Made by a program: the position numbers and the translations under genes. Positions 18,287-36,435 of a stretch of DNA of 64,000 nt are shown piece after piece. The stretch lies in contig NZ_SRPE01000005.1 in NCBI RefSeq assembly GCF_004785645.1, positions 62,001-126,000 of the forward strand, in the 5' to 3' direction. The DNA is from Empedobacter tilapiae. Lineage in GTDB: Bacteria; Bacteroidota; Bacteroidia; Flavobacteriales; Weeksellaceae. Under the pieces are notes generated by a model, which saw nothing but the letters and a program-made list of their open reading frames with translations, had not been told where the DNA came from and searched no databases. The stretch's first letter is position 1. Every line of letters starts with the position of its first letter.

Positions 18287-18288
18287 TA

Positions 18289-19083: not shown

Positions 19084-19086
19084 TTC

Positions 19087-20929: not shown

Positions 20930-22032
20930 AATCCGTAAATAGCTTCCTTATTAAAAATTGTTCTATAATTAGCAAAGTTTGAATTATGTCCTTGCTTAAT
21001 TTGAAACCAAAAAATTAATAAAATTGTGTATGATACAAAACTCAGGTAAATAAAATTACGTTTAAATTTATCTCCATTGAATGAATAAACTAATCGACCT
21101 ACTGTTAATCCTAAGAATGTTAAATAAAACCCTGGTAACCTTACTCCAAAAATTCCCTTTCCTAAGAAAAAATATAGTAACACTCCAAATACAAAAAGGT
21201 TCCTAAAGTAGCAATATAACTTATCGTGAGCTGCATATTTATTATATACAATAATAGATAAAATTGAAATAATTTTAACAAAATCTCCTACTGCTACACC
21301 ATCTCCCTGATCATACAATTGACTCCCGTAACTCTCAAATTTATCTTGTCCAATAGGCATAAATTGCATTATAACTTCTATTATAGAATTTAATCCTGTA
21401 TAAAATCCAATAATAGAAAATGCAACTATCCATCCAATAAATTTTTCATCAAATTTCATTGGCGCAATCCAATAAGCTAAAATAAATATAATAACAGATT
21501 CATGAAACTGATAGCCTATAACTATACATATCAAAAATTTTATTAACTTACGATCAATTACATATCGAATAGAGTAAACAGTAAACGCATTTGCTAAACC
21601 TTGTCTTATATGCACATGTTCTTCAAACATAAAGTTTGGCATTGCATAAATAAACAGAACTAGAAAAGGATATCCCCCATATTTGTAAAATGTAGAAGTT
21701 TTAAGAGCTAACGATATCGCTGCTACAGTTAAGGACACCATTGCAAAGTCAAAACCAAAATCAACAAGTATCTTATTCAATACCAAATATCCTGGTTCCA
21801 TACTTGTTAGTTCTGTAAATTGATCAAATTCTGACCATCCTATATCTCCTAACATTCTAAAAGTCTGAAAATATGCAACCCAATCAGGACTCAAGCCATA
21901 ACCAAATCCTGCTGTGAAACACATAATCACAATAACTAGGATATATAATTGCTTACTAACTTTTTTATTAGAATACTCTAATACAGAAAGAATTACAAGA
22001 AATGCGAATATGAATAAATAAATAAAACTCAC
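20914..22032 (-). CDS. EpsG-family membrane protein, candidate Wzy polysaccharide polymerase
   Basis: 372 residues with about ten hydrophobic segments. GYGLSPDWVAYFQTFRMLGD followed by EPGYLVLNKILVDFGFDFAMVS, then HVHIRQGLANAFTVYSIRYV, match the EpsG family (PF14897), whose members polymerise repeat units in the periplasm. Wzy proteins are weakly conserved, so the call rests on these motifs and on position between glycosyltransferases. No other polymerase candidate is present in the locus. Confidence 0.85.
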   Translation of the reverse strand: MSFIYLFIFAFLVILSVLEYSNKKVSKQLYILVIVIMCFTAGFGYGLSPDWVAYFQTFRMLGDIGWSEFDQFTELTSMEPGYLVLNKILVDFGFDFAMVSLTVAAISLALKTSTFYKYGGYPFLVLFIYAMPNFMFEEHVHIRQGLANAFTVYSIRYVIDRKLIKFLICIVIGYQFHESVIIFILAYWIAPMKFDEKFIGWIVAFSIIGFYTGLNSIIEVIMQFMPIGQDKFESYGSQLYDQGDGVAVGDFVKIISILSIIVYNKYAAHDKLYCYFRNLFVFGVLLYFFLGKGIFGVRLPGFYLTFLGLTVGRLVYSFNGDKFKRNFIYLSFVSYTILLIFWFQIKQGHNSNFANYRTIFNKEAIYGLWRWN

Positions 22033-22038
22033 TACAAA

Positions 22039-23022
22039 TTAAAATTTTAGTAATAATTGGAGATTTATAAAAGATATATAATAATAAATTCTTTTTTTCA
22101 ATGGTAATGAATTTAGGTAGTTAATATCAAAACGTTTATATTTTCTAATCTCTTTTTTAGATAATTTACACGTTTTCAAGAATTCATTTAATTCATTTAG
22201 TAGCTGTATTTTTAACGATTTATTTTTCACATAAGCCACATAAGCCAAATACGAATAATAGCCTTGAATAATTTGAAAACGTTTTAACTCTGTTACAAAT
22301 GTATTGTATTTACTTTTATAAAAATAATTCGTCACCTCATTTACAGCTAGAAACATATCCAAGCCTTTTTCAGTATGCGTTTTTGTTATAGAATTTTCCC
22401 GTTCAAAGTATTTATACAAAGGTTCATTAATTTTAGAAATGATTGTCGAATCTAATACCAATTTTGGAATTAATTCTATATCCTCAAAATGAATCCCTAA
22501 TTTAAATTTATGGTTTTCAAATAAAGATTTTTTAAAGATTTTATTACACGCAAAACAACTCATTTCACCAAAAATTGTAAAATCATCTTTTAACACAATT
22601 TTGTTTAATAATTGTGGAGATTGTGGTAAGTATCGAAACTCTCTCCCATTTTCATCAACCTTTACCAAATCGCACAATACAATTTCTGACTGATGCTTTT
22701 TTGCTAAATCAATCATTTTCTCAAACATTTCAAGATCGATATAATCATCCGAATCTACAAAAGCAATAAATTCGCCCAAGGCTTTCTCAATTCCAACATT
22801 ACGCGCTTCGCTTAATCCTCCGTTGTCTTTGATAGTAGATTTTATACGATTATCTTTTTTGCAATATTCATCTATAATTTGTTGCGAATTATCTTTCGAT
22901 CCATCATTTATAACAATTATCTCGATATCTTTTAATGTTTGATTCAAAATAGAATCTAAACATTTCGAAACATATTTTTCTGTATTATAAACAGGTACAA
23001 TAACTGATAATAATGGATTCAT
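22039..23022 (-). CDS. Glycosyltransferase family 2
   Basis: 327 residues. GT-A motifs: LSVIVPVYNTEKYVSKCLDSI, IEIIVINDGSKDNS, GGLSEARNVGIEKALGEFIAFVDSDDYI. The HFEDIELIPKLV stretch is the acidic acceptor-side motif. It resembles capsule and EPS enzymes of the EpsJ/WaaV type. The stop is 6 nt before the EpsG-like gene and the start overlaps the acyltransferase gene by 4 nt. Sugar specificity unknown. Confidence 0.9.
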   Translation of the reverse strand: MNPLLSVIVPVYNTEKYVSKCLDSILNQTLKDIEIIVINDGSKDNSQQIIDEYCKKDNRIKSTIKDNGGLSEARNVGIEKALGEFIAFVDSDDYIDLEMFEKMIDLAKKHQSEIVLCDLVKVDENGREFRYLPQSPQLLNKIVLKDDFTIFGEMSCFACNKIFKKSLFENHKFKLGIHFEDIELIPKLVLDSTIISKINEPLYKYFERENSITKTHTEKGLDMFLAVNEVTNYFYKSKYNTFVTELKRFQIIQGYYSYLAYVAYVKNKSLKIQLLNELNEFLKTCKLSKKEIRKYKRFDINYLNSLPLKKRIYYYISFINLQLLLKF

Positions 23023-24077
23023 TTGTTTTTTTTGAATAAAATATTATGTATTTTTTTTCCTATTGGTTTCTCTAAATATTGAAAACTAAAAAGTCCAAAT
23101 CCAAAAAATAAAACAATTAATAAAATGGGGATTATCCAATTATATTGTCCAAAATAAGGTGATAATTTTATAATAATTACTAAACCGACCATCTGATGAA
23201 TTAAATAAACACTATAACTTGTTCTTCCTAATTTTGACATTATTTTACCTCCTAAAAAATTAAGCCATGAATTTCTAAACAAAAAAACAAACCAAACGAT
23301 AGCACTTATAATAACAAACCATTTTAATTCCTGCTTTTCTGAAGTTATATATACCAACGCAAAAAGAAAAATCAAATAAATTATGTTTTTATAATCAGCT
23401 TTCTCTAAGTATAATTTTGATATAATGATCCCTATCAAAAACCAAATTAAGAAACTAACAAATGGTATATAACTCAATATTTTATGTATTGTTCCGTGAA
23501 TAGAAAGTTGAAGCAAATTTTCCTCAGTTCCAAAAAAATACCACATCACAGTTCCTAATATTGATATTATACTAAAATTTAATATGACGGTCTTTTTATT
23601 TATAAAAAATAATACTGAAATGAGAACATAGAATATAATTTCAACCCAAAGTGACCAATAAGCATAATCCATATAACCAAAGTTGGTTCCCAATAACTTA
23701 TTAGGAATACTTGGTGAAAGGAATGTATTAGAAAATAATAGATTTTTAAACTCTTTTCCTTGTAAAAAAAATGTCAAGTCGGTAGTTCTAAAAACACAAA
23801 ATGTTATAATTGAACATATTAACATCCCAGGCATAAGACGTATATATCTTTTTTTAATAAACTCTATAAAGCTTTTAGAATTATTTAATGTAATAAAAAT
23901 AACAAAGCCCGAAATCATAAAAAAGAATTCAACCCCTAAGTAACCAAAATAAAAAATAGAACTATCAAAATTATAATGATACAATTCTGGATATGAACTA
24001 TAAAAATGATATAACATTACGATAAGAATAGCTAAAACTCTAAAGCCATCAAGAATATCAATTCGGTTATTTTTCAT
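23019..24077 (-). CDS. Acyltransferase family 3 (OafA/YrhL-like) membrane protein
   Basis: 352 residues, ten membrane segments. The N-terminal RIDILDGFRVLAILIVMLYHF carries the conserved Arg and His of the AT3 family, followed by FFMISGFVIFITL. Such proteins O-acetylate surface glycans, taking the acetyl group across the membrane. It has no C-terminal SGNH domain. It is one of three different acyltransferase types in this locus. Confidence 0.92.
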   Translation of the reverse strand: MKNNRIDILDGFRVLAILIVMLYHFYSSYPELYHYNFDSSIFYFGYLGVEFFFMISGFVIFITLNNSKSFIEFIKKRYIRLMPGMLICSIITFCVFRTTDLTFFLQGKEFKNLLFSNTFLSPSIPNKLLGTNFGYMDYAYWSLWVEIIFYVLISVLFFINKKTVILNFSIISILGTVMWYFFGTEENLLQLSIHGTIHKILSYIPFVSFLIWFLIGIIISKLYLEKADYKNIIYLIFLFALVYITSEKQELKWFVIISAIVWFVFLFRNSWLNFLGGKIMSKLGRTSYSVYLIHQMVGLVIIIKLSPYFGQYNWIIPILLIVLFFGFGLFSFQYLEKPIGKKIHNILFKKNK

Positions 24078-24094
24078 AAATCGTTGATTTTAAT

Positions 24095-25159
24095 TTATAT
24101 TAAATTAAACAAATTTTCATATTGTTCGATTATTATCTTTTTACTAAACCTTGAATAAATACTTCCTATAATTCTATTCTTATCGTGAGATTTCTTCAAA
24201 ATTTCTTTTATTTTTTTTGCAAATCCTTTCGAATCTTCTATCGAAAAAATTTCACCATTTATTTCTTCTTGAATAATTTCATTAATTCCCCCAGGTGCAT
24301 TATTTGCCAAACTATACGTACCACAAGCCCCAGCTTCTAACAAAACATTCGGAAATCCCTCATAACGAGACGAAAGAATAAATAAATCTGCTTCTTTTAA
24401 ATACACAAATGGATTACTCATTTTCCCAAGAAAAGTAACATTGTTCAATCCTAATTGTTTTTTTTGTTGAAGTAATTCTTCTTTAAAAACCCCATCACCC
24501 AGAATTGTTAATTTAATATTTTCCGTTTTCAATTCACTCATCACATTTAGTAATAAATCAAACCCCTTTCTTGGTGATAAATTTCCTATTGCAATAATAT
24601 TTTTATAGCTCGTGTTATAATTTTCAATATTATTTTCTTCTTTTAATCGATTAATTAAATCAAAATCAACTGGATTATTAATTTTTTTTACTTTCAAACG
24701 ATTAATCTTAAAATTATCTATTAAATCATTTTTCATATCATCACTTTGAGCAATAATTTGATGAAAATTGTTATAAAAACGATAAAAAAATAGAATTTCT
24801 TTACGAGTTACATGTTTCGAAACAACGTTAGTTTCTCTCGCAATAAATTTTGTTTTCGAAAAGAATGGTATTAACGGTGATAAAAATGCTGAAATTTCTC
24901 CCCAACCTGTAAAAACAATATCGGGTTTCATTTCTTTTATTAATGGAATAATTTTAAAAATAGAATACCGAATTCGAGAAATATTTAATTCTATTATCTC
25001 AACATCTGACTTTAGATGATTCAGATAATATCCTTGTTTTTTAAACAAGACTAATTTTGGACAAAATTTCGTTCTATCCAACTCATTGCAAAGTGTAGTT
25101 ATAACACGTTCGGCACCTCCTTGATTAAGATCAGGTAATATAAAAAGTATCGTTTTCAA
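24095..25159 (-). CDS. Glycosyltransferase family 4 (GT-B)
   Basis: 354 residues. ILFILPDLNQGGAERVITTLCNEL is the N-terminal GGAE motif, and the C-terminal donor domain has IAIGNLSPRKGFDLLL, LTILGDGVFKEEL, and DLFILSSRYEGFPNVLLEAGACG with the E(x7)E pattern of retaining GT-B enzymes. Lies 3 nt after the acetyltransferase gene. Donor unknown. Confidence 0.92.
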   Translation of the reverse strand: MKTILFILPDLNQGGAERVITTLCNELDRTKFCPKLVLFKKQGYYLNHLKSDVEIIELNISRIRYSIFKIIPLIKEMKPDIVFTGWGEISAFLSPLIPFFSKTKFIARETNVVSKHVTRKEILFFYRFYNNFHQIIAQSDDMKNDLIDNFKINRLKVKKINNPVDFDLINRLKEENNIENYNTSYKNIIAIGNLSPRKGFDLLLNVMSELKTENIKLTILGDGVFKEELLQQKKQLGLNNVTFLGKMSNPFVYLKEADLFILSSRYEGFPNVLLEAGACGTYSLANNAPGGINEIIQEEINGEIFSIEDSKGFAKKIKEILKKSHDKNRIIGSIYSRFSKKIIIEQYENLFNLI

Positions 25160-25162
25160 ATT

Positions 25163-25714
25163 TTAATCCTCAATTCTATTATTAATATAACCTTCTGTAG
25201 CATTTTCATTTGAAATAACTTTCATCGGATTTCCTGTTACAATTGAATTATCAGGAACGTCTTCCGTTACATAACTATTTGGTGCAATCAAAACATTATT
25301 ACCTATTATTATTCCTCCAACAATCACTGCATTTGTTCCAACCCAAACATCATTTTTTAAAACTGGAAAACCCTTTTTTTTACCTCTATTAGTTTGTCCC
25401 AAAGTTACACCATGTGCAATATTGCAATTTTTACCAATTCTACATTTAGGATTAACAACTACAGTTCCCCAATGTCCTAAATTAAGTCCTGGACCAATTT
25501 CTGTTCTTGCAGAAATTTGATAACCATATTTGATAGAATAATGACGTAACAATAAACGATAAACAAACCCAAAAAAGTGTTTTGAAGAATATTGTTGTGC
25601 TTTTCGTAAAAAATAAATATACCGAAAACCTGGATTCATAAAACCTTTCAAAAAAGGAAAGTCTGTCCAATAACCAAAATTTCTATAAAAATCTTGTTGT
25701 ATAATTGTTTTCAT
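25163..25714 (-). CDS. Left-handed beta-helix O-acetyltransferase, serine acetyltransferase-like
   Basis: 183 residues. An N-terminal helical part is followed by hexapeptide repeats: GYQISARTEIGPGLNLGHWGTVVVNPKCRIGKNCNIAHGVTLGQ, with His in GHWG and AHG as in serine acetyltransferases, then VWVGTNAVIVGGIIIGNNVLIAPNSYVTEDVPDNSIVTGNPMKVI. It uses acetyl-CoA in the cytosol. In a polysaccharide locus the acceptor is more likely a sugar than serine. Confidence 0.88.
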   Translation of the reverse strand: MKTIIQQDFYRNFGYWTDFPFLKGFMNPGFRYIYFLRKAQQYSSKHFFGFVYRLLLRHYSIKYGYQISARTEIGPGLNLGHWGTVVVNPKCRIGKNCNIAHGVTLGQTNRGKKKGFPVLKNDVWVGTNAVIVGGIIIGNNVLIAPNSYVTEDVPDNSIVTGNPMKVISNENATEGYINNRIED

Positions 25715-25723
25715 AAAATTTGA

Positions 25724-26863
25724 TTAAAAATTTTGTTCTATAGATTCAACCGCATTTTTCAATGTAAAAGGTAAGCTTTTTGACTGAATAGTAATAGTGT
25801 AATTTTCAACAAAATCATTATTTTCAAGAAAAAATTTCATTGAATTGTAAATTTCATCCTCATCATTTGGAATAATATAACCTAACTCTCCTTCATTCAA
25901 TATTTCGCGAACGCCAGAAACATCTGTTGCAATAATAGGTTTAGCTAAAACCATTGCTTCAAATAAAACAGTAGGATATCCTTCGTAACGAGATGATAAA
26001 ATATAGTAATCTGCCTGTGTAAAATAAGGATAAGGATTTTCTTTAAAACCTATCAATTTAGCTGTTTCTTCAACTTTTAATTCCCAAAATAAGTTCTCGA
26101 TAGTAGGAAAATCATAACCATCCCCAACTATCCATACATTATGTTGAAAACCTTCATCTAATAAACGTCGATGTGCTCTTAATAATCGATCAAATCCTTT
26201 TTGAGGAAAAACTGTACCAATTGAAACAAAAGTTTTGACCCCCTCTTTCTTTTTTAAATCACAAGGTTCTTTTGCAAGAGTTAATATCTCGTCGACATCG
26301 ATCGGATTATAAATACGAACAATTTTCTGTTTTTCAACTTCAGAATCCGCTAAATCTAAAAACAATTCATTTATTTTATTCGAAATCACGAGAATTTTAT
26401 CAAATCCGAAAAACTTTTTTAATCGTTCTTCTGTATACTCAGGAATATTGGATAAATCATTATGTATCCAAACGATTTTTTTTGAAGATTTAATAGGAGA
26501 ATTAAGAATTTCGTCTGCAATTCCATGAATTGCAGCAAACTCTATATCATATTTTTTATTTGGTAAAATATTTTTATAAAGAATCTTTGGAAATATCTTC
26601 AAAATCTTTTGGTAAATTACCCGATAAGCCTTTTGTGGAATATCTTGCAAACGATTTGTTGTAATCATTTCGCCTTTGTTCAGATAATAAATATTAATCC
26701 AAGATGGAACATCTTTGAGATATTTACCCGAATATAGATTTAATAACAAATCAATTTCGTACTTATCTGAAGATAAGTTTTTCAAAAAAGTCACTAATAC
26801 TTTTTCAGCACCTCCATGACGAAGTGAACCAATACGTATTAATATTTTCTTTTTAGCAACCAT
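25724..26863 (-). CDS. Glycosyltransferase family 4 (GT-B)
   Basis: 379 residues. KKILIRIGSLRHGGAEKVLVTFLKNL at the N-terminus; donor domain with FVSIGTVFPQKGFDRLLRAHRRL, VWIVGDGYDFPTIENL, and DYYILSSRYEGYPTVLFEAMVLAKPIIATDVSG. It is close in style to the GT4 at 35248-36435 (IRIGSLRHGGAEKVL compared with FRLRSLEMGGVPRVVL). Overlaps the GT-C-like gene by 1 nt. Donor unknown. Confidence 0.92.
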   Translation of the reverse strand: MVAKKKILIRIGSLRHGGAEKVLVTFLKNLSSDKYEIDLLLNLYSGKYLKDVPSWINIYYLNKGEMITTNRLQDIPQKAYRVIYQKILKIFPKILYKNILPNKKYDIEFAAIHGIADEILNSPIKSSKKIVWIHNDLSNIPEYTEERLKKFFGFDKILVISNKINELFLDLADSEVEKQKIVRIYNPIDVDEILTLAKEPCDLKKKEGVKTFVSIGTVFPQKGFDRLLRAHRRLLDEGFQHNVWIVGDGYDFPTIENLFWELKVEETAKLIGFKENPYPYFTQADYYILSSRYEGYPTVLFEAMVLAKPIIATDVSGVREILNEGELGYIIPNDEDEIYNSMKFFLENNDFVENYTITIQSKSLPFTLKNAVESIEQNF

Positions 26864-28380
26864 TATTTCGCAGTCGATTTTCGTTTATACAAATAGAAAT
26901 TTCGACCAGATGGTTTGAATTTGTATATTTTATCTAAAATTGGATTATCGGACTTTGCGACATTGTTAATTTTAAACTCTTTGATTAATTCATAATCATC
27001 ATAGATTGTTTTATCAGCCAATTCTCCTTTGAACATTGGTTTAAAATCTTCTAAAATATATTTAGGTTTTGCTTTATTAATTAAATTAGAAAAACCAACT
27101 TCTTTACCATTTTTAACGATATTTTCCTCAGTTAACCTCTTATCAACTAAACCTACATAATCAATCACTTTCAATTTAGAAAAATAAGGAATATAACCTG
27201 CTGGTTCTAAGAAAATATAATTTTCTTTATTAGGCTCTATCGAATCTAAATATAAACCTATTTTTCGGGCATAATTCCATTCTCCATGTCCTGTAGCAAT
27301 TGAATGTACTGCTTGATATGAAGTTAACGGAACAAAAAGGAAAATTAAATAAGCGATTGATAGAGTTCTATATTTTTCAGAATCTAAAACAATTAATATA
27401 ATAGGTAAAAACAAACAAATTTGGGGAATCCAATAATACCAATCGAACCACGAATTTGCTGTTCCAAAAATTATAGTTTTTACAACCCCAAAAAAGAATA
27501 AAAATGAAATAACTTTACTCTTATCAGCCTCCTTTGTCTTCCATTTTTTGTTTAAAATAATTAAACAAATTATTGAAATTAAAAATAAGATTATAGTTGA
27601 AAAATTATAGATAGATATTGGGAACTTAACAATACCAAAGTAATTTGGACCAAAATATTTAAACTCTGCCCAACGTTCAAGTAAAGTAGGGTTAGAATAG
27701 TTATTTTTTTTAGAAGTTATCGTATTATTTACAATTTCTCCAAAATAAAACCAGTTAAAAAAAATTGTAGATAATACAGCTAAAACTCCTCCAATCATAA
27801 GAGCTGTATTCCATTTACGTTGTTTTACAATATCGTAAATAAATAATAATCCTAAGAAAACACATGTATCAATACGTGTCCAAAGAATGAGAATTGGCAT
27901 TACAATAAAAGCCCAATTTTTTCTTTCAACAAAGCCATATTTAATTAGAGCTATATAGAAAAAAAATAACATTCCGAATTCCATTCCTAAAATAGACATT
28001 TTAATAGCCGGAGGGAGAAAACTTACAAATAAAATAAATAGAATAATCTTATTCGTTGAATTAAAAAATAATTTCCCTAACCAATATATACCAATTGTTA
28101 AAAGAATTGTATTGAATATAAGAAGTGGATAAATAAAATTTCCTTCTCCAAAAACAGATTGAAAAATAACTCCTACAAAAACATAAAGATGAGTCGTAGA
28201 TGCTGAAATTTTTTCTATACCGTTGTAACCATAAACACCATATTCTATAATATTTCTAGCTACTCGCCAAGAAATCAATGCATCTTCTTGTATGTGGCGT
28301 GTAAAAAAAAATAAAGATTTAAGAAGTATAATTAATATTGAAGCAATAAAAATTCTACTCTTATTCAAAGAATCTTTCAT
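26863..28380 (-). CDS. GT-C-like polytopic membrane protein, candidate lipid-phosphate-pentofuranose transferase
   Basis: 505 residues with about eleven membrane segments and a C-terminal soluble domain (about 400-505). The first loop reads IQEDALISWRVARNIIEYG, then GYNGIEKISASTTHLYV. This is similar to the loop DDAYISxRYARNLxxGxGxxxNxGExVxGxTxxLW of actinobacterial AftB-type arabinofuranosyltransferases and related GT-C proteins, where the acidic residues are thought to be catalytic. It is the first gene after the four-gene DprE1/DprE2/UbiA/HAD set, which would supply a polyprenyl-phosphate pentofuranose donor. The GT-C fold is a reasonable inference; the substrate is an inference from context. 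A promoter box lies 18 nt upstream. Confidence 0.65.
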   Translation of the reverse strand: MKDSLNKSRIFIASILIILLKSLFFFTRHIQEDALISWRVARNIIEYGVYGYNGIEKISASTTHLYVFVGVIFQSVFGEGNFIYPLLIFNTILLTIGIYWLGKLFFNSTNKIILFILFVSFLPPAIKMSILGMEFGMLFFFYIALIKYGFVERKNWAFIVMPILILWTRIDTCVFLGLLFIYDIVKQRKWNTALMIGGVLAVLSTIFFNWFYFGEIVNNTITSKKNNYSNPTLLERWAEFKYFGPNYFGIVKFPISIYNFSTIILFLISIICLIILNKKWKTKEADKSKVISFLFFFGVVKTIIFGTANSWFDWYYWIPQICLFLPIILIVLDSEKYRTLSIAYLIFLFVPLTSYQAVHSIATGHGEWNYARKIGLYLDSIEPNKENYIFLEPAGYIPYFSKLKVIDYVGLVDKRLTEENIVKNGKEVGFSNLINKAKPKYILEDFKPMFKGELADKTIYDDYELIKEFKINNVAKSDNPILDKIYKFKPSGRNFYLYKRKSTAK

Positions 28381-28398
28381 AAATTAGGTTTTGGAACG

Positions 28399-28406
28399 CA
28401 AATATA
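28399..28406 (-). promoter_or_regulatory. Internal promoter -7 box (TATATTTG) of the polysaccharide locus
   Basis: The minus strand reads TATATTTG, ending 18 nt before the GT-C-like ATG, in the only sizeable gap (77 nt) of the locus. It could drive the downstream half (28380 to 15221) independently of the upstream half. Confidence 0.5.
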
Positions 28407-28457
28407 AGATTTTTAAATCCTCAATACATAAAAAAAGCAATTTTATAAATTTATTCC

Positions 28458-29051
28458 TTAATTATTGAAATACTTAAAATTAGCCTTTGAAGCAAGAGAA
28501 AACATTGCCTCATCACCTTTTGTATCTCCAAAAGCAATTATCTCATCATACATAGACAAATCAATTTCTTTTTCTATTCTATTTTTCTTCTCTTCATAAT
28601 TACAATTTTCAGAAGCAAAATTACCTGTAAAAAAACCTTGTTCATCAAATTTAGCTTTCGTACAAATTAATCCCATTTCATAATAATCTGCAAAAGGTTG
28701 TATCCAGAAATCTATTGAAGCAGAAACAATAAATTTATCATTATAATTACTTAAAGATTTAATATATTCATCTGCTTTTGAATAAATTAAGTCTTTATGA
28801 TTTTGTTCAAAATAATTTTGAGTTAACCGATTAATTTCAACATAAGATTTACCTTTCAAAAATTTTGAAATAAATTTTTCTTTTACCAAACTTGCTTTAA
28901 TTAACTTTAATTTAGATGCCACGAAAAACGGGATAAACATAAGATAATTAATAAAATAGGATTCAGGAAAAGAGAATTTTAAGAAATCAAATAAAGTATC
29001 TTTTTTGGTTATAGTTCCATCAAAATCGAAGAGATATAAATTACGGTTCAT
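28458..29051 (-). CDS. HAD-IB family phosphatase
   Basis: 197 residues. Motif I is DFDGTITKKDT, motif II lies around FIVSASIDFW, motif III/IV is FGDTKGDEAMFSLA. This is the phosphoserine-phosphatase-like HAD-IB subfamily. Its start overlaps the DprE2-like stop (TAATG). In the mycobacterial arabinose pathway the lipid-linked 5-phosphoribose must be dephosphorylated before DprE1 acts; this protein is the obvious candidate for that step here, in place of the PAP2-type Rv3807c. The fold is certain; the substrate is inferred from context. Confidence 0.88.
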   Translation of the reverse strand: MNRNLYLFDFDGTITKKDTLFDFLKFSFPESYFINYLMFIPFFVASKLKLIKASLVKEKFISKFLKGKSYVEINRLTQNYFEQNHKDLIYSKADEYIKSLSNYNDKFIVSASIDFWIQPFADYYEMGLICTKAKFDEQGFFTGNFASENCNYEEKKNRIEKEIDLSMYDEIIAFGDTKGDEAMFSLASKANFKYFNN

Positions 29052-29776
29052 TACATTTTCAGTTTTTTGAAAACAAATTCAGGTATGTTTCGAATTATCA
29101 TCATTATTCCCCACCAAACAAAAGTTACATAAACAACATTTTTCTTTTTTGTATAAGCTTTATAAATAATACTTGCTGCTTGTTCTGGTTGAGCAGTCAA
29201 TGGTTTTGGTGTTTCAATATCTGCTGTCATCTGAGTATCCATAAAACCAGGAATAACTGTCATTACATGAACTTTTTTATGAAACAAATAATTTCTCAAA
29301 CCAGATAAATAAACTGTAAATCCTGCTTTTGCAGAGCCATATATAAAATTACTTTGACGACCTCGTTCTCCTGCTACAGATGACAATCCGATAATAGTAC
29401 CAGAACCTTTCTTTTCGAATTTTTCAGCAAAATGATTTATTAAACCAATCAATTTCGAATAATTAATTTCTACAATTTGCTTTGTATTCCAATCATCATA
29501 TAAACCTTCTTCAGAATTTTTTCCTAAATATCCTGCAGCACAAAATAATAATTCAGAATCTATATAATTTAATTTTGTATAATCATTCTCTTTTGTTAAA
29601 TCAAAATGAACAATTTCACATTTCTGCTCGTACTTTGTATAAATATGTTGAGCTAACTTGGCTGTTTTCTCAATATTTGATGTAAATAAATATACTATTG
29701 GAAAACGATTCCCTTCCTTCAAAACCTTTTCTACAAAAGCTGTTGCTACATCTGAATTAGACCCTATTACTATCAT
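29051..29776 (-). CDS. SDR oxidoreductase, DprE2-like
   Basis: 241 residues, short-chain dehydrogenase/reductase. The N-terminal IVIGSNSDVATAFVEKVL is a variant nucleotide-binding loop, LLFCAAGYLG replaces NNAG, and the catalytic region is GLSSVAGERGRQSNFIYGSAKAG (Ser, Tyr-x-x-x-Lys). SSVAGER...SNF.YGS.KAG is the pattern I associate with DprE2, which reduces the 2-keto intermediate to polyprenyl-phosphoryl-D-arabinofuranose. A C-terminal hydrophobic, basic tail (WWGIMMIIRNIPEFVFKKLKM) suggests membrane association. Its start overlaps the DprE1-like stop by 4 nt. Confidence 0.85.
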   Translation of the reverse strand: MIVIGSNSDVATAFVEKVLKEGNRFPIVYLFTSNIEKTAKLAQHIYTKYEQKCEIVHFDLTKENDYTKLNYIDSELLFCAAGYLGKNSEEGLYDDWNTKQIVEINYSKLIGLINHFAEKFEKKGSGTIIGLSSVAGERGRQSNFIYGSAKAGFTVYLSGLRNYLFHKKVHVMTVIPGFMDTQMTADIETPKPLTAQPEQAASIIYKAYTKKKNVVYVTFVWWGIMMIIRNIPEFVFKKLKM

Positions 29777-31095
29777 TTTTGTTTAAATCTATTGATACGT
29801 TCATTTTGCATTGATTCAAATTTTTCTGAACCAATATTTTTTAAATAATCTGTTAATTCTGGATTAGACATCGCATCTTTTGTACGATAAATATGCCCTC
29901 CATAATCCATGACAATTCTATCTAAACTTGCAATCAGTTTTTCAAGTTTACTATTCACTTTAAAATCTAAAGCAAGAGTGTAGCCTTTCATAGGAAAAGA
30001 ATTATAAGCTTGTAAATTATTTTCTCCAAATAATTTCAAAACAACTAAAAAAGAACCATTTCCACTGGCTGCAATTGTTTCTAAAATTTTTCGCATTCCT
30101 TCTTTCCCTTGTTCTTTTGGTATAACAAATTGATATTGAATAAATCCATTTTTACCATAAATACGATTCCAATTATGAACAGCATCCAATGGATAGAAAA
30201 ACGTCTCATAATCAACAATATTTTTCAAATGTTTTTTCCCTTGTTTATTAAAATATAACCAATTAAAGATCTTAATTGATAAAGGATTTAATACAAAATT
30301 TGGAAAAAAGAAGGGAATATTTAAATTCAACTTCTTTTTTATAGATAAAGGATTTTTCTTTAATTTTTCTGGTAATTCACTTAAAGCAGCATGCTCACCA
30401 CGCAACATAATAGACTTGCCTAAAGTAACTCCTTTTTGTAAACAATCTAGCCAAGCTACATTATATGTCCAAGATTCTGAAGATTCAAATAATTCGAAAA
30501 TTTCGTCTAGGTTCTTAGCTTGAATAGCTTCATTTCGAATATAGGCTGTTTCTATTTTTTTCATCATAAATCGAGCAGAAAGAATAACTCCTGTCAAACC
30601 CATTCCTCCTATTGTTGTCCAAAATAAATTTGTATTCTCATTTCTTGAACAACGTAAAATATCTCCATTTTCGATCATTAAATCAAAATGAATTAAATGA
30701 TCAGAGAAACAACCATCAATGTGGTGATTTTTTCCATGTACGTCTGATGCTATCGCACCACCAACAGTAATAAATTTTGTACCTGGAGTAACGGAAATAA
30801 AATAACCCGAAGGAATTGAAATTTCTAAAACTTCAGACAGTAAAACTCCTGACTCTACTTCTATTATTCCATGCTCTCTATCAAACTCAATAAATTTATT
30901 CCATTTAGAAGTAGAAATAATAGTATTCTGCAATGATGCATCTCCATAACAACGTCCATTTCCACGAGCAATTAATTCTTCATTTGAAAGAACTACTTCC
31001 TGAAATTCTAAAATTGTAGTAGGAGTTATAACATTGGCTTTTATAGACGGATAAAGTCCCCAATTAGCAACTGGGGTTAATTTTTTATTTTCCAT
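29773..31095 (-). CDS. FAD-dependent oxidoreductase, DprE1-like (polyprenyl-phosphoribose 2-oxidase type)
   Basis: 440 residues, vanillyl-alcohol oxidase superfamily. The FAD-binding motifs ARGNGRCYGDASLQ and VTPGTKFITVGGAIASDVHGKNHHIDGCFSDHL correspond closely to DprE1 (GRG.GRSYGD and GGAIA.DIHGKNHH...G.F..H). The C-terminal substrate domain follows (FFYPLDAVHNWNRIYGKNGFIQYQFVIP). DprE1 oxidises the C2 hydroxyl of decaprenyl-phosphoryl-ribose. Being next to DprE2-like and UbiA-like genes makes the assignment strong. Overlaps the UbiA gene by 11 nt. Confidence 0.88.
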   Translation of the reverse strand: MENKKLTPVANWGLYPSIKANVITPTTILEFQEVVLSNEELIARGNGRCYGDASLQNTIISTSKWNKFIEFDREHGIIEVESGVLLSEVLEISIPSGYFISVTPGTKFITVGGAIASDVHGKNHHIDGCFSDHLIHFDLMIENGDILRCSRNENTNLFWTTIGGMGLTGVILSARFMMKKIETAYIRNEAIQAKNLDEIFELFESSESWTYNVAWLDCLQKGVTLGKSIMLRGEHAALSELPEKLKKNPLSIKKKLNLNIPFFFPNFVLNPLSIKIFNWLYFNKQGKKHLKNIVDYETFFYPLDAVHNWNRIYGKNGFIQYQFVIPKEQGKEGMRKILETIAASGNGSFLVVLKLFGENNLQAYNSFPMKGYTLALDFKVNSKLEKLIASLDRIVMDYGGHIYRTKDAMSNPELTDYLKNIGSEKFESMQNERINRFKQK

Positions 31096-31960
31096 TGTTA
31101 AAATAAATCAATAAAACGTAACTAATTCCCCACATTATAATTAAAAACTGTAAAAAATGATCTTTAAAAATTAATTTAGTAGGTGATTCTGTTTTCATAT
31201 ATACAAATGTCTGTTGCAAATAGCGTAAAACAGCTGCAAAAACAAAAACAAAGGTGTAAATAATATAGTGGTGAAATTTGGATTGTGTCTCTGGTGAAAC
31301 AATAAACATCATATAGCAAATAACAGCCACAGTACAAGTAAGTGACAATGCAGAATTAAGAAAATTTAGATTGTAACCATCCAGAGATTTTCTTGTAATT
31401 CCTTCTAAATCGGCATTAATTAATTCTCCTCTTCTCTTTCCTAAGGCTAGAATCAGCGCCAAATCAAAAACCAATAAAATTGTCCAATCTGTTACTAGGA
31501 TTCCTGTCATATATCCTCCTACAAAGACTCTTAGTAAAAATCCTGTAGCAATAATGATAACATCTAAAATAGCTATTTGTTTAAGTTTAAATGAATAAGC
31601 TAGATTCATAAAGAAATAAATTGCAATTAATATTGCAACTTGTTTATTTCCTAAAAACCAAATCAATAGAGATGTAATAAAGATTAATACAAAGAATAAA
31701 GTTAACGCATTTGATTTAGAAATCTTCCCACTTGCTAATGGTCTATTTTTCTTTTCTGGATGTTTTTTATCTTTTTCTATGTCTACATAGTCATTTATAA
31801 TATAGATACTACTTGCTACAAAAGAAAATATTAGAAACCCATAAAATGATTCTATAAATAAATCTATTTCAAATAATTTTCCAGAAAAGAATATTGGTAA
31901 AAATACAAAGAGATTTTTCACCCATTGATTAACTCTTATAAGTTTTAGATAGTTTAACAT
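31085..31960 (-). CDS. UbiA-family prenyltransferase, decaprenyl-phosphate phosphoribosyltransferase type
   Basis: 291 residues, about eight membrane segments. MLNYLKLIRVNQWVKNLFVFLPIFFSG is the N-terminal motif of the phosphoribosyltransferase branch (RP.QW.KN..vF.PL.F). Metal-binding motif 1 is NDYVDIEKDKKHPEKKNRPLASG, and motif 2 lies in LALILALGKRRGEL, where KRRGE/KRxxEL is typical of DPPR synthases rather than of quinone or heme prenyltransferases. It would join phosphoribosyl pyrophosphate to polyprenyl phosphate at the inner membrane. First gene of the four-gene lipid-pentose set. Confidence 0.9.
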   Translation of the reverse strand: MLNYLKLIRVNQWVKNLFVFLPIFFSGKLFEIDLFIESFYGFLIFSFVASSIYIINDYVDIEKDKKHPEKKNRPLASGKISKSNALTLFFVLIFITSLLIWFLGNKQVAILIAIYFFMNLAYSFKLKQIAILDVIIIATGFLLRVFVGGYMTGILVTDWTILLVFDLALILALGKRRGELINADLEGITRKSLDGYNLNFLNSALSLTCTVAVICYMMFIVSPETQSKFHHYIIYTFVFVFAAVLRYLQQTFVYMKTESPTKLIFKDHFLQFLIIMWGISYVLLIYFNNGK

Positions 31961-31967
31961 TAAACAT

Positions 31968-32900
31968 TTATTTTTTTAAAATATTTTTTAAATCTTTACT
32001 CAAAAGTCTATTGAATTTTTCTACTCCAATTTGATTCAAATGATTATTATCAAAAAAATCTGTAGAATCTCTTAATTCAATTAAATTTTGGTAATTCTTA
32101 TAATTTCCTAATTTATCTAAAAACTGATCCACTTCATTATGATTACTAATTGATTTATATAAATCATTTGTAATTGGCGCTTGCACAATGTAGACTTCAA
32201 TCCCTTTACTTTTTATAAACTTAATATTATTAATTAATTCTTCTTTTTGATTTTCTCTTAAATCCCAATTCGAAAAATTTTCTTTATCAAATATATTTTT
32301 TCTAAACTTTGTTTCTACAAATCCCGTAAGAGAAACATAAGTATCCCCTCCTTGACTAATTTCTTCTTTAAACTTCCTATTCAAACCAAAAGTTTGACGA
32401 AATCCTGAAAAAATTAAAGTATTATACGCTAATAAATTATGCACTTCATTTGCCATTTCAATTGAATTGAGATCAATTTTATTATTACTTAAAATATCCA
32501 AAGAAGACTCCACTCCATCTATATTCATTGTTCCTGCATACGCTTCATAAACAACAAGTTTAGGATTAATTTGTTCCAAATATTGATGTAACAAAACCTT
32601 TGTATTGATGGGTGTTTGAGCACTTGAGCCTAAATTAAAAGCTGTAATTCCATCTTTCTTCAAAATTCTGGGATCAATTCCTCTATATGCATGCGAAGAA
32701 CCTACAATCAAAACATCAATATTTTTAATTTTTTGTGCATCTTGCATTCGTGAAAATGTATGTCCATAACATCCCATACAGCTTCTTACATTTTTAGACA
32801 TATAAAATGGTAAAACTGAACTCCAAAGTGGCATTATAGTAATATAAAATACAATTGCAAATAAAGAGAATAGACCTGAATTAATTAAAAACTTCTTCAT
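31968..32900 (-). CDS. SGNH-like membrane-anchored protein, partner of the MBOAT acyltransferase
   Basis: 310 residues. An N-terminal membrane anchor (about 5-27) is followed by an extracytoplasmic SGNH/GDSL-like domain. Block I is VLIVGSSHAYRGIDP (nucleophile Ser in GSSH), and the C-terminal DSTDFFDNNHLNQIGVEKFN holds the Asp and His. The layout is like DltD/AlgJ-type partners that take the acyl group from an MBOAT protein and pass it to a glycan. It lies 3 nt after the MBOAT gene. Two cysteines (SCMGCYG) near the anchor are unusual. Confidence 0.8.
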   Translation of the reverse strand: MKKFLINSGLFSLFAIVFYITIMPLWSSVLPFYMSKNVRSCMGCYGHTFSRMQDAQKIKNIDVLIVGSSHAYRGIDPRILKKDGITAFNLGSSAQTPINTKVLLHQYLEQINPKLVVYEAYAGTMNIDGVESSLDILSNNKIDLNSIEMANEVHNLLAYNTLIFSGFRQTFGLNRKFKEEISQGGDTYVSLTGFVETKFRKNIFDKENFSNWDLRENQKEELINNIKFIKSKGIEVYIVQAPITNDLYKSISNHNEVDQFLDKLGNYKNYQNLIELRDSTDFFDNNHLNQIGVEKFNRLLSKDLKNILKK

Positions 32901-32903
32901 CTT

Positions 32904-34346
32904 TTAAAATTGAAAATAAATAAACGGACTTTCTTCTGTTTGTAAAAACAAACCGATTAACATCACAACAAAAGCATAGAAACACCATCTCACCCATTTT
33001 GGTTTAGAAAATAAAAACTTCTCTATTCCATAATTATTTCTTCTTCCAATCCATTCTATCACCAATAAAAATGCAATTAAAATCAACGTAGCTAAAGCAC
33101 TTTTTCGTAAAGTAGGGAATGAAAAAAGTGACTGATTAAAAATTCCTCCAATATATTCAAACGCATGTGTAACTGAATTAGCACGAAAAAATATCCAGGC
33201 CAAAGCTGTTAAACTAAATGTCAAAATCATATTAAATAATTCTCTGAAACTTGGCAACATTCGATCCTGTGCAACAATTTCTAAATTATTTCGATTCGTT
33301 TTTAATAAAATAGAAGGCATAATAAATAACGCATTCAAGAATCCCCAAAAAATAAAGGTCCAATTCGCTCCGTGCCAAAAACCACTTACAATAAAAATGA
33401 TAAATGTATTGCGAACACGCATCCAATTTCCTCCTTTACTTCCTCCTAATGGAATGTATAAATAATCTCGAAACCATGTTGATAACGAAATGTGCCAACG
33501 TCTCCAAAATTCAGCAATATCACGAGAGAAATAAGGATAATTAAAGTTTTTCAATAAATTAATCCCAAACAAACGAGCTACACCAAGTGCAATATCAGAA
33601 TACCCAGAAAAGTCTCCATAAATCTGAAATGTAAAGAAAATAGCTCCTAAAACTAAATTAGATCCTGACTGCGATTCAGGATTCGAGAATATTTCATTCG
33701 CATAAATTGCACAATTATCAGCAATCACCATTTTCTTGAATAACCCCCAAAGAATTTGGCGCATTCCGTCTACAGCTTGAGAATAATCAAAAACTCTTTT
33801 CTTTTTTATCTGAGGTAAAAGATGCGTCGCTCTTTCTATAGGTCCTGCAACTAACAATGGAAAGAAACTTACGAAAACCGAATAATCTACTACATTTCGC
33901 TCTGCTTTTAGTCTTCCATAATAAATATCAATAATATAAGATAACCCATGAAAAGTATAAAACGAGATACCTACTGGCAAAATTATATTCAATGTCCAAG
34001 GATGAACTTCCAAACCAAATCCATTTAACATTTCTGCAAAAGAATCTACAAAGAAGTTATAATATTTAAAAAAGCCTAAAAAACCAAGATTAATCCCAAT
34101 ACTGATTGTTAACCATATTTTTTTTAGTTTTTGAGAAGTAGCTTCTTCTATTTTTATTCCTGAATAGTAGTCTAAAAATGTAGAAAACCCTAACAAAAAC
34201 ATAAAACGCCAATCCCAACAACCATAGAAATAGTAACTCGCTACTAAAAGCAAGATATTTTGAAATTTTAAATTCTTTCTCAATAACCAATAAAGAGTAA
34301 ACACGATTGGTAAAAAAACCGCAAAAGAAATAGAATTAAATAACAT
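32904..34346 (-). CDS. MBOAT family O-acyltransferase (AlgI/DltB-like)
   Basis: 480 residues, about eleven membrane segments. MLFNSISFAVFLPIVFTLYW is the standard AlgI-like start; further motifs are FPLLVAGPIERATHLLPQ, FWRRWHISLSTWFRDYLYIPLGGSKGG and the catalytic His region VSGFWHGANWTFIFWG. Such proteins carry acyl groups across the inner membrane for alginate, teichoic acid or EPS acylation. With the SGNH gene it forms a two-gene acylation module inside the locus. Confidence 0.95.
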   Translation of the reverse strand: MLFNSISFAVFLPIVFTLYWLLRKNLKFQNILLLVASYYFYGCWDWRFMFLLGFSTFLDYYSGIKIEEATSQKLKKIWLTISIGINLGFLGFFKYYNFFVDSFAEMLNGFGLEVHPWTLNIILPVGISFYTFHGLSYIIDIYYGRLKAERNVVDYSVFVSFFPLLVAGPIERATHLLPQIKKKRVFDYSQAVDGMRQILWGLFKKMVIADNCAIYANEIFSNPESQSGSNLVLGAIFFTFQIYGDFSGYSDIALGVARLFGINLLKNFNYPYFSRDIAEFWRRWHISLSTWFRDYLYIPLGGSKGGNWMRVRNTFIIFIVSGFWHGANWTFIFWGFLNALFIMPSILLKTNRNNLEIVAQDRMLPSFRELFNMILTFSLTALAWIFFRANSVTHAFEYIGGIFNQSLFSFPTLRKSALATLILIAFLLVIEWIGRRNNYGIEKFLFSKPKWVRWCFYAFVVMLIGLFLQTEESPFIYFQF

Positions 34347-34349
34347 ATT

Positions 34350-35261
34350 TTATTTCTGTTTATAATATAGATAAGACAACGGATAAATCAATGTTGATAA
34401 CATTTTAAATTGCTTCAATTCTTTATTTATCTCTGATAAATCTCGTTGATTAATAATTGAATACACTTGATATCCAACTAAGTTACGAATCAAAGCTTTT
34501 GGATAATTAAAAAGTTTTTTTCCATAAGAATTTAGAAATGAGCGATAACCTTCCATTAATCCAAAAGTGTTTTTTCCACTCCAACGTGTATTCGAAACAG
34601 AATTCTCATCTGATTCATCCAAATGATAGTTACGAACAACTTTATTAACAAATCTAGTTTTTACTCCATTAGCATCATAAGTATTAAAAAATACTGTTTG
34701 CGGAATATATCCTTTGTTTTTGTATAATGAATAATCAAAGTTTTTCAACAACTGTTGATAAGTCTTTGTTATAAAAATACCAAACTTATCTCCACGCACT
34801 TTATACTTATATCTCATATCGAAAATAGATCCATCAAAACCATTATTTGGATATTGATCTCCTACAATTTTTCCATCTGTATATTGCGACAATCCCATTA
34901 CAGAAATATATTCGTCTTGATTTTGAATTTGTTCAACCTCATCAAATAATATTTGTAACGAATCTGTTGGATACGAATCATCCGAATCTACAATCATAAA
35001 ATACTTAGAAGTCACTTTCTTAATTCCTTCAAAAACAGTAACAAATTTATGCTGGTTTTCATTCCAGAAATATTCAATCTTTAATAAATTTTCTTCTTGA
35101 AAAGATTCAACCAATTCTTTTGTATTATCAGTAGAACCATCGTCCATTATGATCCATTTAAAATCTTTAAATATTTGATTTTTCAATGAATCATAGACTC
35201 GGGTCAATGTATGTGCACGATTATATGAAGGTGTGACAATTGTAATTTTAACTTCGCTCAT
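34350..35261 (-). CDS. Glycosyltransferase family 2
   Basis: 303 residues from the ATG at 35261 (MSEVKITIVTPSYNRAHTL). A start ten codons upstream at 35291 is possible, but the shorter form gives a 14-nt overlap with the previous gene, like other junctions in this locus, and begins right before the family motif. Further motifs: KWIIMDDGSTDNTKELV and YFMIVDSDDSYPTDSL. Reminiscent of the YfnF/teichoic-type GT2 proteins of EPS loci. Donor unknown. Confidence 0.9.
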   Translation of the reverse strand: MSEVKITIVTPSYNRAHTLTRVYDSLKNQIFKDFKWIIMDDGSTDNTKELVESFQEENLLKIEYFWNENQHKFVTVFEGIKKVTSKYFMIVDSDDSYPTDSLQILFDEVEQIQNQDEYISVMGLSQYTDGKIVGDQYPNNGFDGSIFDMRYKYKVRGDKFGIFITKTYQQLLKNFDYSLYKNKGYIPQTVFFNTYDANGVKTRFVNKVVRNYHLDESDENSVSNTRWSGKNTFGLMEGYRSFLNSYGKKLFNYPKALIRNLVGYQVYSIINQRDLSEINKELKQFKMLSTLIYPLSYLYYKQK

Positions 35262-36435
35262 TTTCAAGTTTGATTTGATTTTGTTGCTCAAAAATTTCAG
35301 TTACCTGATTATATATCTTTTTCGAGTCAAACTTCTTATATGAGTCTTTGGTATTTTGCTTGATTTTTTCAATCAATTCAGGTTGAGTAAAAACTTTTTT
35401 CATCGCTTCATAAATCTCTTCTTCATCATAATTTACTAAAATTCCATCAACCCCTCCATCTACCATCTCTGGAATCCCACCAACATTTGTACTGATTATT
35501 GGCTTTTCTAATGCTAATGCCTCATTTATTACCAAAGGATAGGCTTCTGATCTTGTTGGTAATACAAAATAATCAGCATTTTTGATATATGGATAAGGGT
35601 TAATTTTTGTGCCTAGTAATTTAAATGATTCATTTAATCCTAATTGATTTATTTGTTCTATTAAATTATTCTTTTCCTCTCCATCACCCAAAACTACAAT
35701 ACTATGTTCAAAACCTTCTTTAATTAATTTACGATGAATATTAACCAACGTATGATAACCTTTTCTACTATGTAAACGTCCTACAGAACAAAAGATCGGT
35801 TTCTTCAATTCTTCATATTTAACTTCAAATTCTAACGCTTTTTCTTTCACCTTATCTGTATGAATCGCATTGTAGACAACAGAACTACTAGAATAAGTTA
35901 CATCATAAAATTCTTTTATTACATTCTTAATATGTGCAGCACAAAAAATAACATGATCAAATTTTTTCATTTGATCTATTCTTGCTTTTGCTCTTTCTTG
36001 GTTTACATCATATGTAACATCAGTATGAAACCAAGCTATTTTTCTTGAATTTTTATCTGGAGAATTTAATACCATATCAAATTCTGCATAGCTAGAAGCT
36101 ATTTCGATATCGTATTTTTCTGGAACTTTTAATTTATATAAAATTGAAGGAAATTTATCATAAACTTCTAGTTTCATTCGTCGCCAAATCAATTGTATTT
36201 TCTGCATAAAAGAATTAGAACTCATTTGTTCTTTTCCTTTTTCTACAACAATCAATTTTAAATCAGCCGGAATTTCTTTTACTAATTCACCTTGATATAA
36301 ATTAAGCATCAAAGTAAAATCGAATTTATCTTTTGGTAAGTTTCGTAACAAATCTAAAACTACTCTCGGAACTCCACCCATTTCTAACGAACGAAGCCTA
36401 AAAAGCACTTTAATTTTTTTAGGTTGATTTGACAT
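35248..36435 (-). CDS. Glycosyltransferase family 4 (GT-B), first gene of the polysaccharide locus
   Basis: 395 residues. IKVLFRLRSLEMGGVPRVVLDLLRNL at the N-terminus, then FCSVGRLHSRKGYHTLVNIH, VVLGDGEEKNNLI, and DYFVLPTRSEAYPLVINEALALEKPIISTNVGG with the E(x7)E motif. A promoter box (TATTTTTG) lies 17 nt before its ATG, so it begins the transcription unit. Donor unknown. Confidence 0.93.
   Translation of the reverse strand: MSNQPKKIKVLFRLRSLEMGGVPRVVLDLLRNLPKDKFDFTLMLNLYQGELVKEIPADLKLIVVEKGKEQMSSNSFMQKIQLIWRRMKLEVYDKFPSILYKLKVPEKYDIEIASSYAEFDMVLNSPDKNSRKIAWFHTDVTYDVNQERAKARIDQMKKFDHVIFCAAHIKNVIKEFYDVTYSSSSVVYNAIHTDKVKEKALEFEVKYEELKKPIFCSVGRLHSRKGYHTLVNIHRKLIKEGFEHSIVVLGDGEEKNNLIEQINQLGLNESFKLLGTKINPYPYIKNADYFVLPTRSEAYPLVINEALALEKPIISTNVGGIPEMVDGGVDGILVNYDEEEIYEAMKKVFTQPELIEKIKQNTKDSYKKFDSKKIYNQVTEIFEQQNQIKLENERS

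Follow-up and report, generated by a model that had tools for sequence, protein, structure and literature searches.

A predicted operon for lipid-linked D-arabinofuranose in Empedobacter tilapiae and the exchange of its putative transferase gene among Weeksellaceae

Operon and proposed pathway

We analysed a 64,000-nucleotide stretch of the Empedobacter tilapiae genome (the window; NCBI RefSeq assembly GCF_004785645.1, contig NZ_SRPE01000005.1, positions 62,001 to 126,000 of the forward strand) and found five consecutive minus-strand genes that probably encode the synthesis and transfer of a lipid-linked pentose (Table 1). Four overlapping genes are predicted to make polyprenyl-phosphate D-arabinofuranose, the fifth encodes a membrane protein, A, that would transfer the sugar, and in relatives an unrelated membrane protein, B, takes the place of A. 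We put the probability of this reading as a whole at roughly three in four; for the donor pathway itself, sequence could hardly give a surer case. D-Arabinofuranose is regarded as a sugar of mycobacterial cell walls, with few Gram-negative cases (Nod factors and Pseudomonas pilins). If the reading is true, this donor is made by most of a large family, including Chryseobacterium, and an entire type of envelope glycan has gone unnoticed.

In the proposed pathway, the UbiA-family protein would couple phosphoribosyl pyrophosphate to polyprenyl phosphate, and the HAD protein would take off the 5-phosphate of the lipid-linked ribose. The DprE1-type oxidase and the DprE2-type short-chain dehydrogenase/reductase (SDR) would first oxidise and then reduce carbon 2 of the ribofuranose and so invert it, giving polyprenyl-phosphate D-arabinofuranose. 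A flippase would turn the lipid-linked sugar to the periplasm, where A would add D-arabinofuranose to a glycan of the envelope; here the polysaccharide of the surrounding Wza/Wzc/Wzy locus is the most likely one. The gene for B has, in relatives, replaced that for A many times at the same chromosomal places, so the family would keep one donor pathway and vary its final step. The enzyme chemistry proposed here is that of the homologues, and the sugar, its acceptor and the transferase role of A and B are likewise predictions.

Table 1. Features of the window discussed in the text
Feature	Coordinates	Strand	Length or basis
UbiA-family protein, predicted polyprenyl-phosphate 5-phosphoribosyltransferase (step 1)	31085..31960	-	291 aa
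HAD-IB phosphatase, predicted to take off the 5-phosphate (step 2)	28458..29051	-	197 aa
DprE1-type FAD oxidase, predicted polyprenylphosphoryl-ribose 2'-oxidase (step 3)	29773..31095	-	440 aa
DprE2-type SDR, predicted 2-keto-pentofuranose reductase (step 4)	29051..29776	-	241 aa
GT-C-like membrane protein A, predicted D-arabinofuranosyltransferase (step 5)	26863..28380	-	505 aa, multi-pass
Segment swapped in G002, G003 and G008 for an unrelated 451-aa membrane-protein gene, B, on the opposite strand	26855..28449		DNA alignment
Rest of the polysaccharide locus	15221..26863	-	ORFs; Pfam for 23019-25714
Other side of the operon: SGNH-like protein, MBOAT acyltransferase, GT2, GT4	31968..36435	-	MBOAT by Pfam; GT2 and GT4 by eye

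The initial annotation had described four overlapping minus-strand genes at 28458-31960 and read them as a set for lipid-linked D-arabinofuranose. The four genes are real, and the coordinates and motifs given for them are all present; the next gene, that of A, had been overlooked. It starts 77 bp downstream of the HAD gene on the same strand. Neighbours within the set overlap by 11 bases (UbiA and oxidase), 4 bases (oxidase and SDR) and 1 base (SDR and HAD), and Pfam assigns the four proteins to UbiA, FAD_binding_4, adh_short and HAD. Promoter and terminator scans gave sites about as numerous as in shuffled sequences.

In 77 of 80 named loci the four genes are adjacent and keep their order; the named loci nearest to that of the window, whose own record may not be among them, are from Empedobacter, Algoriella, Chishuiella and Faecalibacter. 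The match to DprE1 is strong (E ≤ 7e-167) in 28 of 60 relatives, counting the window's own genome, and only weak (20-30% identical) in 11 more, and DprE1 was found in 219 of the 246 genomes of the family. This contiguity and breadth indicate a family trait, not a single-strain oddity. Across 392 Bacteroidota genomes, DprE1 was matched at E ≤ 1e-20 in 80, none of which belongs to a neighbouring family (f3). Of the 14 genomes of the window's genus, two (G005 and G012) are without the oxidase, A and B, a natural loss. DprE1-like matches were also found in 66 plasmid records; rhizobia, a roseobacter and a Flammeovirgaceae bacterium carry the pathway genes on plasmids (L196, L197 and L198). A search of the open-licence literature found no description of the pathway in Weeksellaceae, which is weak evidence of absence.

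The four enzymes of the proposed donor pathway

Protein scores were compared with the curated NCBI equivalog cut-offs of NCBIfam, and solved relatives were found by phmmer against the PDB. The top NCBIfam model of the UbiA-family protein is decaprenyl-phosphate phosphoribosyltransferase (NF008977; 225.6 bits, short of the cut-off of 234), with 44 bits for the heme o synthase model and 40 bits for the 4-hydroxybenzoate octaprenyltransferase model. Its sole solved relatives at E ≤ 10 are two chains of decaprenyl-phosphate phosphoribosyltransferase (8j8j, E = 9.1e-40). The motif NDxxDxExDxxHPxKxxRPxAxG is kept in 102 of 105 relatives and xKRxxEL in 103 of 105. The UbiA fold is common to quinone and heme prenyltransferases as well, which would allow a role in quinone or heme synthesis beside unrelated oxidoreductases. 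Model scores of about 5:1 for the phosphoribosyltransferase, solved relatives that are all this enzyme and four genes that travel together in almost every named locus leave that reading practically no room, and we rejected it; by these scores the protein does not group with quinone or heme enzymes.

NCBIfam ranks HAD-IB first for the HAD protein, which passes the TIGR01488 model (79.9 bits, cut-off 45) and narrowly misses TIGR01490 (98.0 bits, cut-off 98.3). The motif DxDGT is present in 101 of 102 relatives and G[DN]xxxD in all 102. The phosphatase step is weakly assigned in mycobacteria, where Rv3807c is of the PAP2 type, and the operon has a HAD phosphatase in its place. We surveyed 40 further Bacteroidota loci, in 39 of which DprE1 was found by the BLAST cut. 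A UbiA gene lies near DprE1 in 28 of the 39; 16 of these 28 UbiA proteins have at least 440 aa, and 13 of the 16 carry a HAD motif in their additional N-terminal part. A separate HAD gene is present in 6 loci, and a HAD that is either fused or separate in 17 of the 28. Such HAD-UbiA fusions point to a phosphatase for the removal of the 5-phosphate. The fused domain and the window's HAD protein are only remote relatives (a search of 16 sequences recovered 4, the best at E = 1.8e-5), so the fusions back the role and not orthology.

The top NCBIfam model of the oxidase is DprE1 (NF053785; 411.9 bits, short of the cut-off of 500, which none of the 392 Bacteroidota genomes passes), and its PDB match is DprE1 itself (4aut, E = 1.2e-82). 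We mapped residues on an alignment to the Mycobacterium tuberculosis enzyme, taking Y60, G117, H132, K134, W230, Q334, Q336, K367, Y415 and K418 as its catalytic or FAD-site residues. All ten are conserved in the window's oxidase (positions 50, 105, 120, 122, 215, 320, 322, 354, 403 and 406, respectively), and they show no variation in 107 of 107 Weeksellaceae-type rows, among which some genomes occur twice, and in 39 of 39 wider Bacteroidota rows. Four active-site positions differ in the window, namely S228 to V, Y314 to F, N385 to T and C387 to A (A375). C387 is the cysteine that benzothiazinones attack; its equivalent is alanine in all 107 Weeksellaceae-type rows, and alanine (35), threonine (3) or serine (1) in the wider 39. 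The wide interest that the initial annotation saw in a Bacteroidota form of this drug target thus needs a caveat, and the alanine bears on the breadth of action of covalent DprE1 inhibitors. Since the UbiA, oxidase and SDR scores all lie under the equivalog cut-offs, the three proteins belong to a diverged branch and are not mycobacterial equivalogs by that rule; the oxidase is, as judged from its residues, a diverged relative predicted to work like mycobacterial DprE1 and not its curated equivalog.

The top NCBIfam model of the SDR is PRK07102 (NF005489; 240 bits, cut-off 267, missed), which has no assigned function, and DprE2 is second (NF053786; 149.2 bits, cut-off 250, missed). This ranking, together with the four changed positions of the DprE1 active site, would suit an end product that is another lipid-linked pentofuranose, for example ribofuranose. 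In contrast, the sole PDB match of the SDR at E ≤ 1e-12 is DprE2 (21gq_C, E = 8.9e-27), the protein is 38% identical to the SDR of a rhizobial operon described below, and an oxidase-reductase pair would seem to be purposeless for ribose. We consider another pentofuranose improbable, and D-arabinofuranose the predicted product. The active-site pair of the SDR is in place as Y146-x-x-x-K150, and YGSAK is found in 101 of 104 relatives. Taken together, the homology, the UbiA scores and the conserved residues support the lipid-linked D-arabinofuranose first proposed for these genes.

Comparison with known systems

The pathway resembles that of mycobacteria in three homologous enzymes (counterparts of Rv3806c, DprE1 and DprE2) with conserved catalytic residues, and in a membrane protein, A, that is related to AftB via intermediates. 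Compared with mycobacteria, the genes form one compact operon in a Gram-negative host, the equivalent of C387 is alanine, scores fall below the curated cut-offs, the phosphatase is of another type and the transferase can be exchanged for an unrelated protein.

A Sinorhizobium alkalisoli locus (L196) has genes, in order, for UbiA, GtrA, oxidase, SDR and a protein without known family, near nodA and nodB. We infer from the matching gene order that these are noeCNHOP, the rhizobial operon for the arabinosylation of Nod factors. Of its genes, noeC, noeH and noeO are stated to act in the synthesis of decaprenylphosphoryl arabinofuranose, and arabinosylation is lost when the last one, noeP, is deleted (PMC5080398). 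The rhizobial operon and that of the window share the order UbiA, oxidase, SDR and then a family-less protein, which puts A in the position that corresponds to the final gene of noeCNHOP; the oxidases are 41% identical. The rhizobial operon differs in that it includes GtrA and lacks a separate HAD gene. B, like A, has no detectable similarity to the L196 protein in the place of noeP. On the Flammeovirgaceae plasmid, the gene after the SDR was considered as a counterpart and rejected, having no similarity to that protein. The pilin system of Pseudomonas aeruginosa PA7/Pa5196 (TfpW) also has D-arabinofuranose in a Gram-negative bacterium (PMC10115798).

Protein A is related to AftB through intermediates

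Protein A matches no Pfam or NCBIfam family at E ≤ 0.001. Its close family (profile A2, 19 sequences) has an invariant E32-D33 pair in the first loop. When the 392 genomes were searched with A2, seven distant members were found (E from 1e-13 to 2e-6), five of them in DprE1-positive genomes. A second profile, A5, was built from ten A2 sequences, one nearer member and six of the seven distant members; D33 is present in all 17 of its sequences. A5 matches AftB (9dlf) at E = 8.2e-19, the only significant match in the PDB, over the membrane core. In the alignment the acidic pair corresponds to D-D in AftB, and later G, E, R and K positions are also aligned. These results show that A is homologous to AftB by way of intermediate sequences, and we predict that A is a D-arabinofuranosyltransferase that uses the lipid-linked donor in the periplasm.

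A and B are exchanged at the same chromosomal sites

DNA alignments of the window to three relatives (G002, G003 and G008) stop at 26854 and resume at 28450 or 28464, and the gene for B lies between; three compared relatives that have A align straight through this segment. Among the viewed loci of the window's genus there are nine A members and three B members. No Pfam family exceeded the cut-off for the B member tabled, and the profile comparison of A with B gave a probability of 4.8%, so no homology between them is claimed. Examples of B genes are L058:11887-13242 and L057:6470-7825, with conserved THPP and GAYxTGETARAC stretches.

Taken jointly, A and B follow the pathway. In the 246 family genomes A was found in 166 and B in 40; A or B is present in 202 of 219 DprE1-positive versus 2 of 27 DprE1-negative genomes (Fisher p = 7e-21). 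As genomes are non-independent, the count was repeated by genus, giving 23 of 24 positive versus 2 of 9 negative genera (p = 6e-5). The two DprE1-negative genomes with A or B are both about 80% complete. The two proteins occur together in only one of the 219 DprE1-positive genomes, and in both genomes that hold A and B the gene for A is incomplete: it is split into two ORFs in G020, the DprE1-positive one, where the B match is likewise interrupted by a stop, and only residues 7-170 are matched in G026.

The exchange has happened repeatedly and gene for gene. A quick DprE1 tree requires a minimum of 10 A/B changes, on 73 rows (65 labelled A or B) that were hand-picked to include known B genomes and with many weak inner branches. 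Near-identical flanks end at the edges of the exchanged gene in G003 (B) and G009 (A), at 96.9% over 5.7 kb on one side and 92.1% over 6.4 kb on the other. G471 (B) and G492 (A) show a clean single-gene swap, with flanks of 98.9% over 7.8 kb and 90% over 0.6 kb. In addition to the loci of the window's genus, we surveyed 26 loci for the site of A or B. In 13 of them (9 A, 4 B) the gene adjoins one for a TMEM260-like protein, a protein O-mannosyltransferase homologue by Pfam for one locus and by BLAST to that one for the rest. In six (3 A, 3 B) it lies by topA and Wzy/WecA/Wza genes, between them in five and just past topA in G014. Two loci share a third site (G492 with A, G471 with B), one has B in the operon itself (G468) and four have the gene elsewhere. 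A total of four chromosomal sites host both A and B versions. Within the genus, the three B species are 62-71% identical in B and 86-91% in DprE1, whereas A shows little extra divergence (83-91%, with 86-94% for DprE1), which suggests that B arrived separately in these species.

The gene-for-gene swapping of A and B, at several sites and nearly confined to genomes that have the pathway, finds its best explanation if the two carry out the same last step. A and B are probably exchangeable D-arabinofuranosyltransferases that differ in linkage or acceptor. The exchange provides two candidate transferase families and natural, near-identical species pairs for comparison.

Several results weigh against this reading of A, B and the pathway. 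The match of A to AftB depends on the six distant intermediates: a single A sequence gave E = 0.28 against AftB, which is not significant, and the A2 profile gave E = 3.2, which ranks AftB behind an unrelated human protein (1.9) in the PDB. The sole Pfam signal in the A family is a weak one to DUF6044, a family whose function is unknown (seen in 6 of 19 members with a best E of 8.6e-4), an AlphaFold model of A built from six close sequences was too poor to be of use (mean pLDDT 37.5), and A has no detectable similarity to the L196 protein in the noeP place. For B, a profile search of the PDB found no solved relative, and a weak signal to PMT_2, a GT-C glycosyltransferase family, appears in just 2 of 12 members (best 1.5e-4). 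Neither A nor B was found in 17 of the 219 DprE1-positive genomes; B alone is not significantly linked to DprE1 (39 of 219 versus 1 of 27, p = 0.09); and outside the window's genus A and B are mostly not next to the operon. The UbiA, oxidase and SDR proteins, too, score below the equivalog cut-offs. Finally, no GtrA-family flippase was found in the window's own genome by a search that was positive in 7 of 14 control genomes.

Given that the donor must be flipped and that the rhizobial and roseobacterial operons do have GtrA genes, this last result lends something to the idea of A and B as alternative flippases of the lipid-linked sugar or accessory proteins for it. That A is homologous to AftB, the acidic pair and the later positions being aligned, and that B has a PMT_2 signal, weak as it is, speaks for transferases instead; we find flippases or accessory proteins unlikely, and retain A and B as candidate transferases.

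A third AftB-like protein (E = 8e-24 to A5) is encoded between the DprE1 and SDR genes of G029 (L079:10583-12214), and G462 has two tandem copies of this type. Its position within the G029 operon counts in favour of our reading of A. It was tried as an explanation for the genomes with neither A nor B and rejected, as it was found in only 1 of the 17 (G462).

Probable acceptor of the sugar

The initial annotation had assigned the sugar to a capsule or exopolysaccharide. This destination fits the window's group, in which the operon sits inside a Wza/Wzc/Wzy polysaccharide locus; it does not carry over to Chryseobacterium and other genera, where the operon is elsewhere on the chromosome, away from capsule genes. 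Of the 16 loci that represent other genera of the family (L067-L082), 9 have the operon at one recurring place, between an OmpA-like gene and a NifS-like/thioredoxin-like pair, names assigned by eye.

That the pathway is real and its sugar goes to proteins, as a general O-glycan or on a pilin-like protein, is a reading that we hold to be the less likely one. It is favoured by the position of the operon outside the window's genus and by the TMEM260-like gene that A or B adjoins in half of the 26 loci, all outside that genus; the TMEM260-like homologue of the window's genome sits on a different contig. The Pseudomonas case is one of pilin glycosylation (PMC10115798). On the other hand, the window's genus and G468 have the operon and A or B within a polysaccharide locus, six further loci have A or B beside topA and the Wzy/WecA/Wza genes, and a word search of the available text of a review of Bacteroidota O-glycosylation (PMC12871550) gave no occurrence of 'arabinos' or 'pent'. 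The polysaccharide of the surrounding locus is preferred as the likely acceptor in the window.

A broader view joins several claims: that a D-arabinofuranose pathway spanning Weeksellaceae ends in A or B, that single-gene swaps at the four sites act as a serotype-like two-state switch, that the glycan is a previously unrecognised one, that phage or host pressure is perhaps the driver and that B is a new arabinosyltransferase family. For these claims held jointly, the odds seem to us evenly balanced.

Genes around the operon

The genes on the HAD side of the operon, beyond A, are taken by eye to encode a WcaJ-like sugar transferase, Wzc, Wza, a WecA-like protein, a GT2, a Wzy-like protein, a second GT2, an acyltransferase, a GT4, a serine-acetyltransferase-like protein and a second GT4, with Pfam as the basis only within the part given in Table 1. 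By eye, no gene for a Wzx flippase was recognised in the locus. The Wzc-like kinase (15803-18286) has a long Gly-Tyr repeat close to its C-terminus. A stretch of about 23010-24094, around the acyltransferase gene (23019-24077), is unaligned in the six relatives compared, which suggests another variable single-gene decoration. On the other side, the SGNH-like label is our assumption for a protein without a Pfam family; together with the MBOAT gene it forms a pair (31968-34346) that is kept in some relatives and missing or replaced in others, a variable decoration by a conserved core. Farther along the window, a gene at 47100-51605 encodes a 1501-aa protein with relatives (such as L095:4533-8378) near the operon or near A or B in a few other genomes; in G026, such a relative is in frame with the fragment of A.

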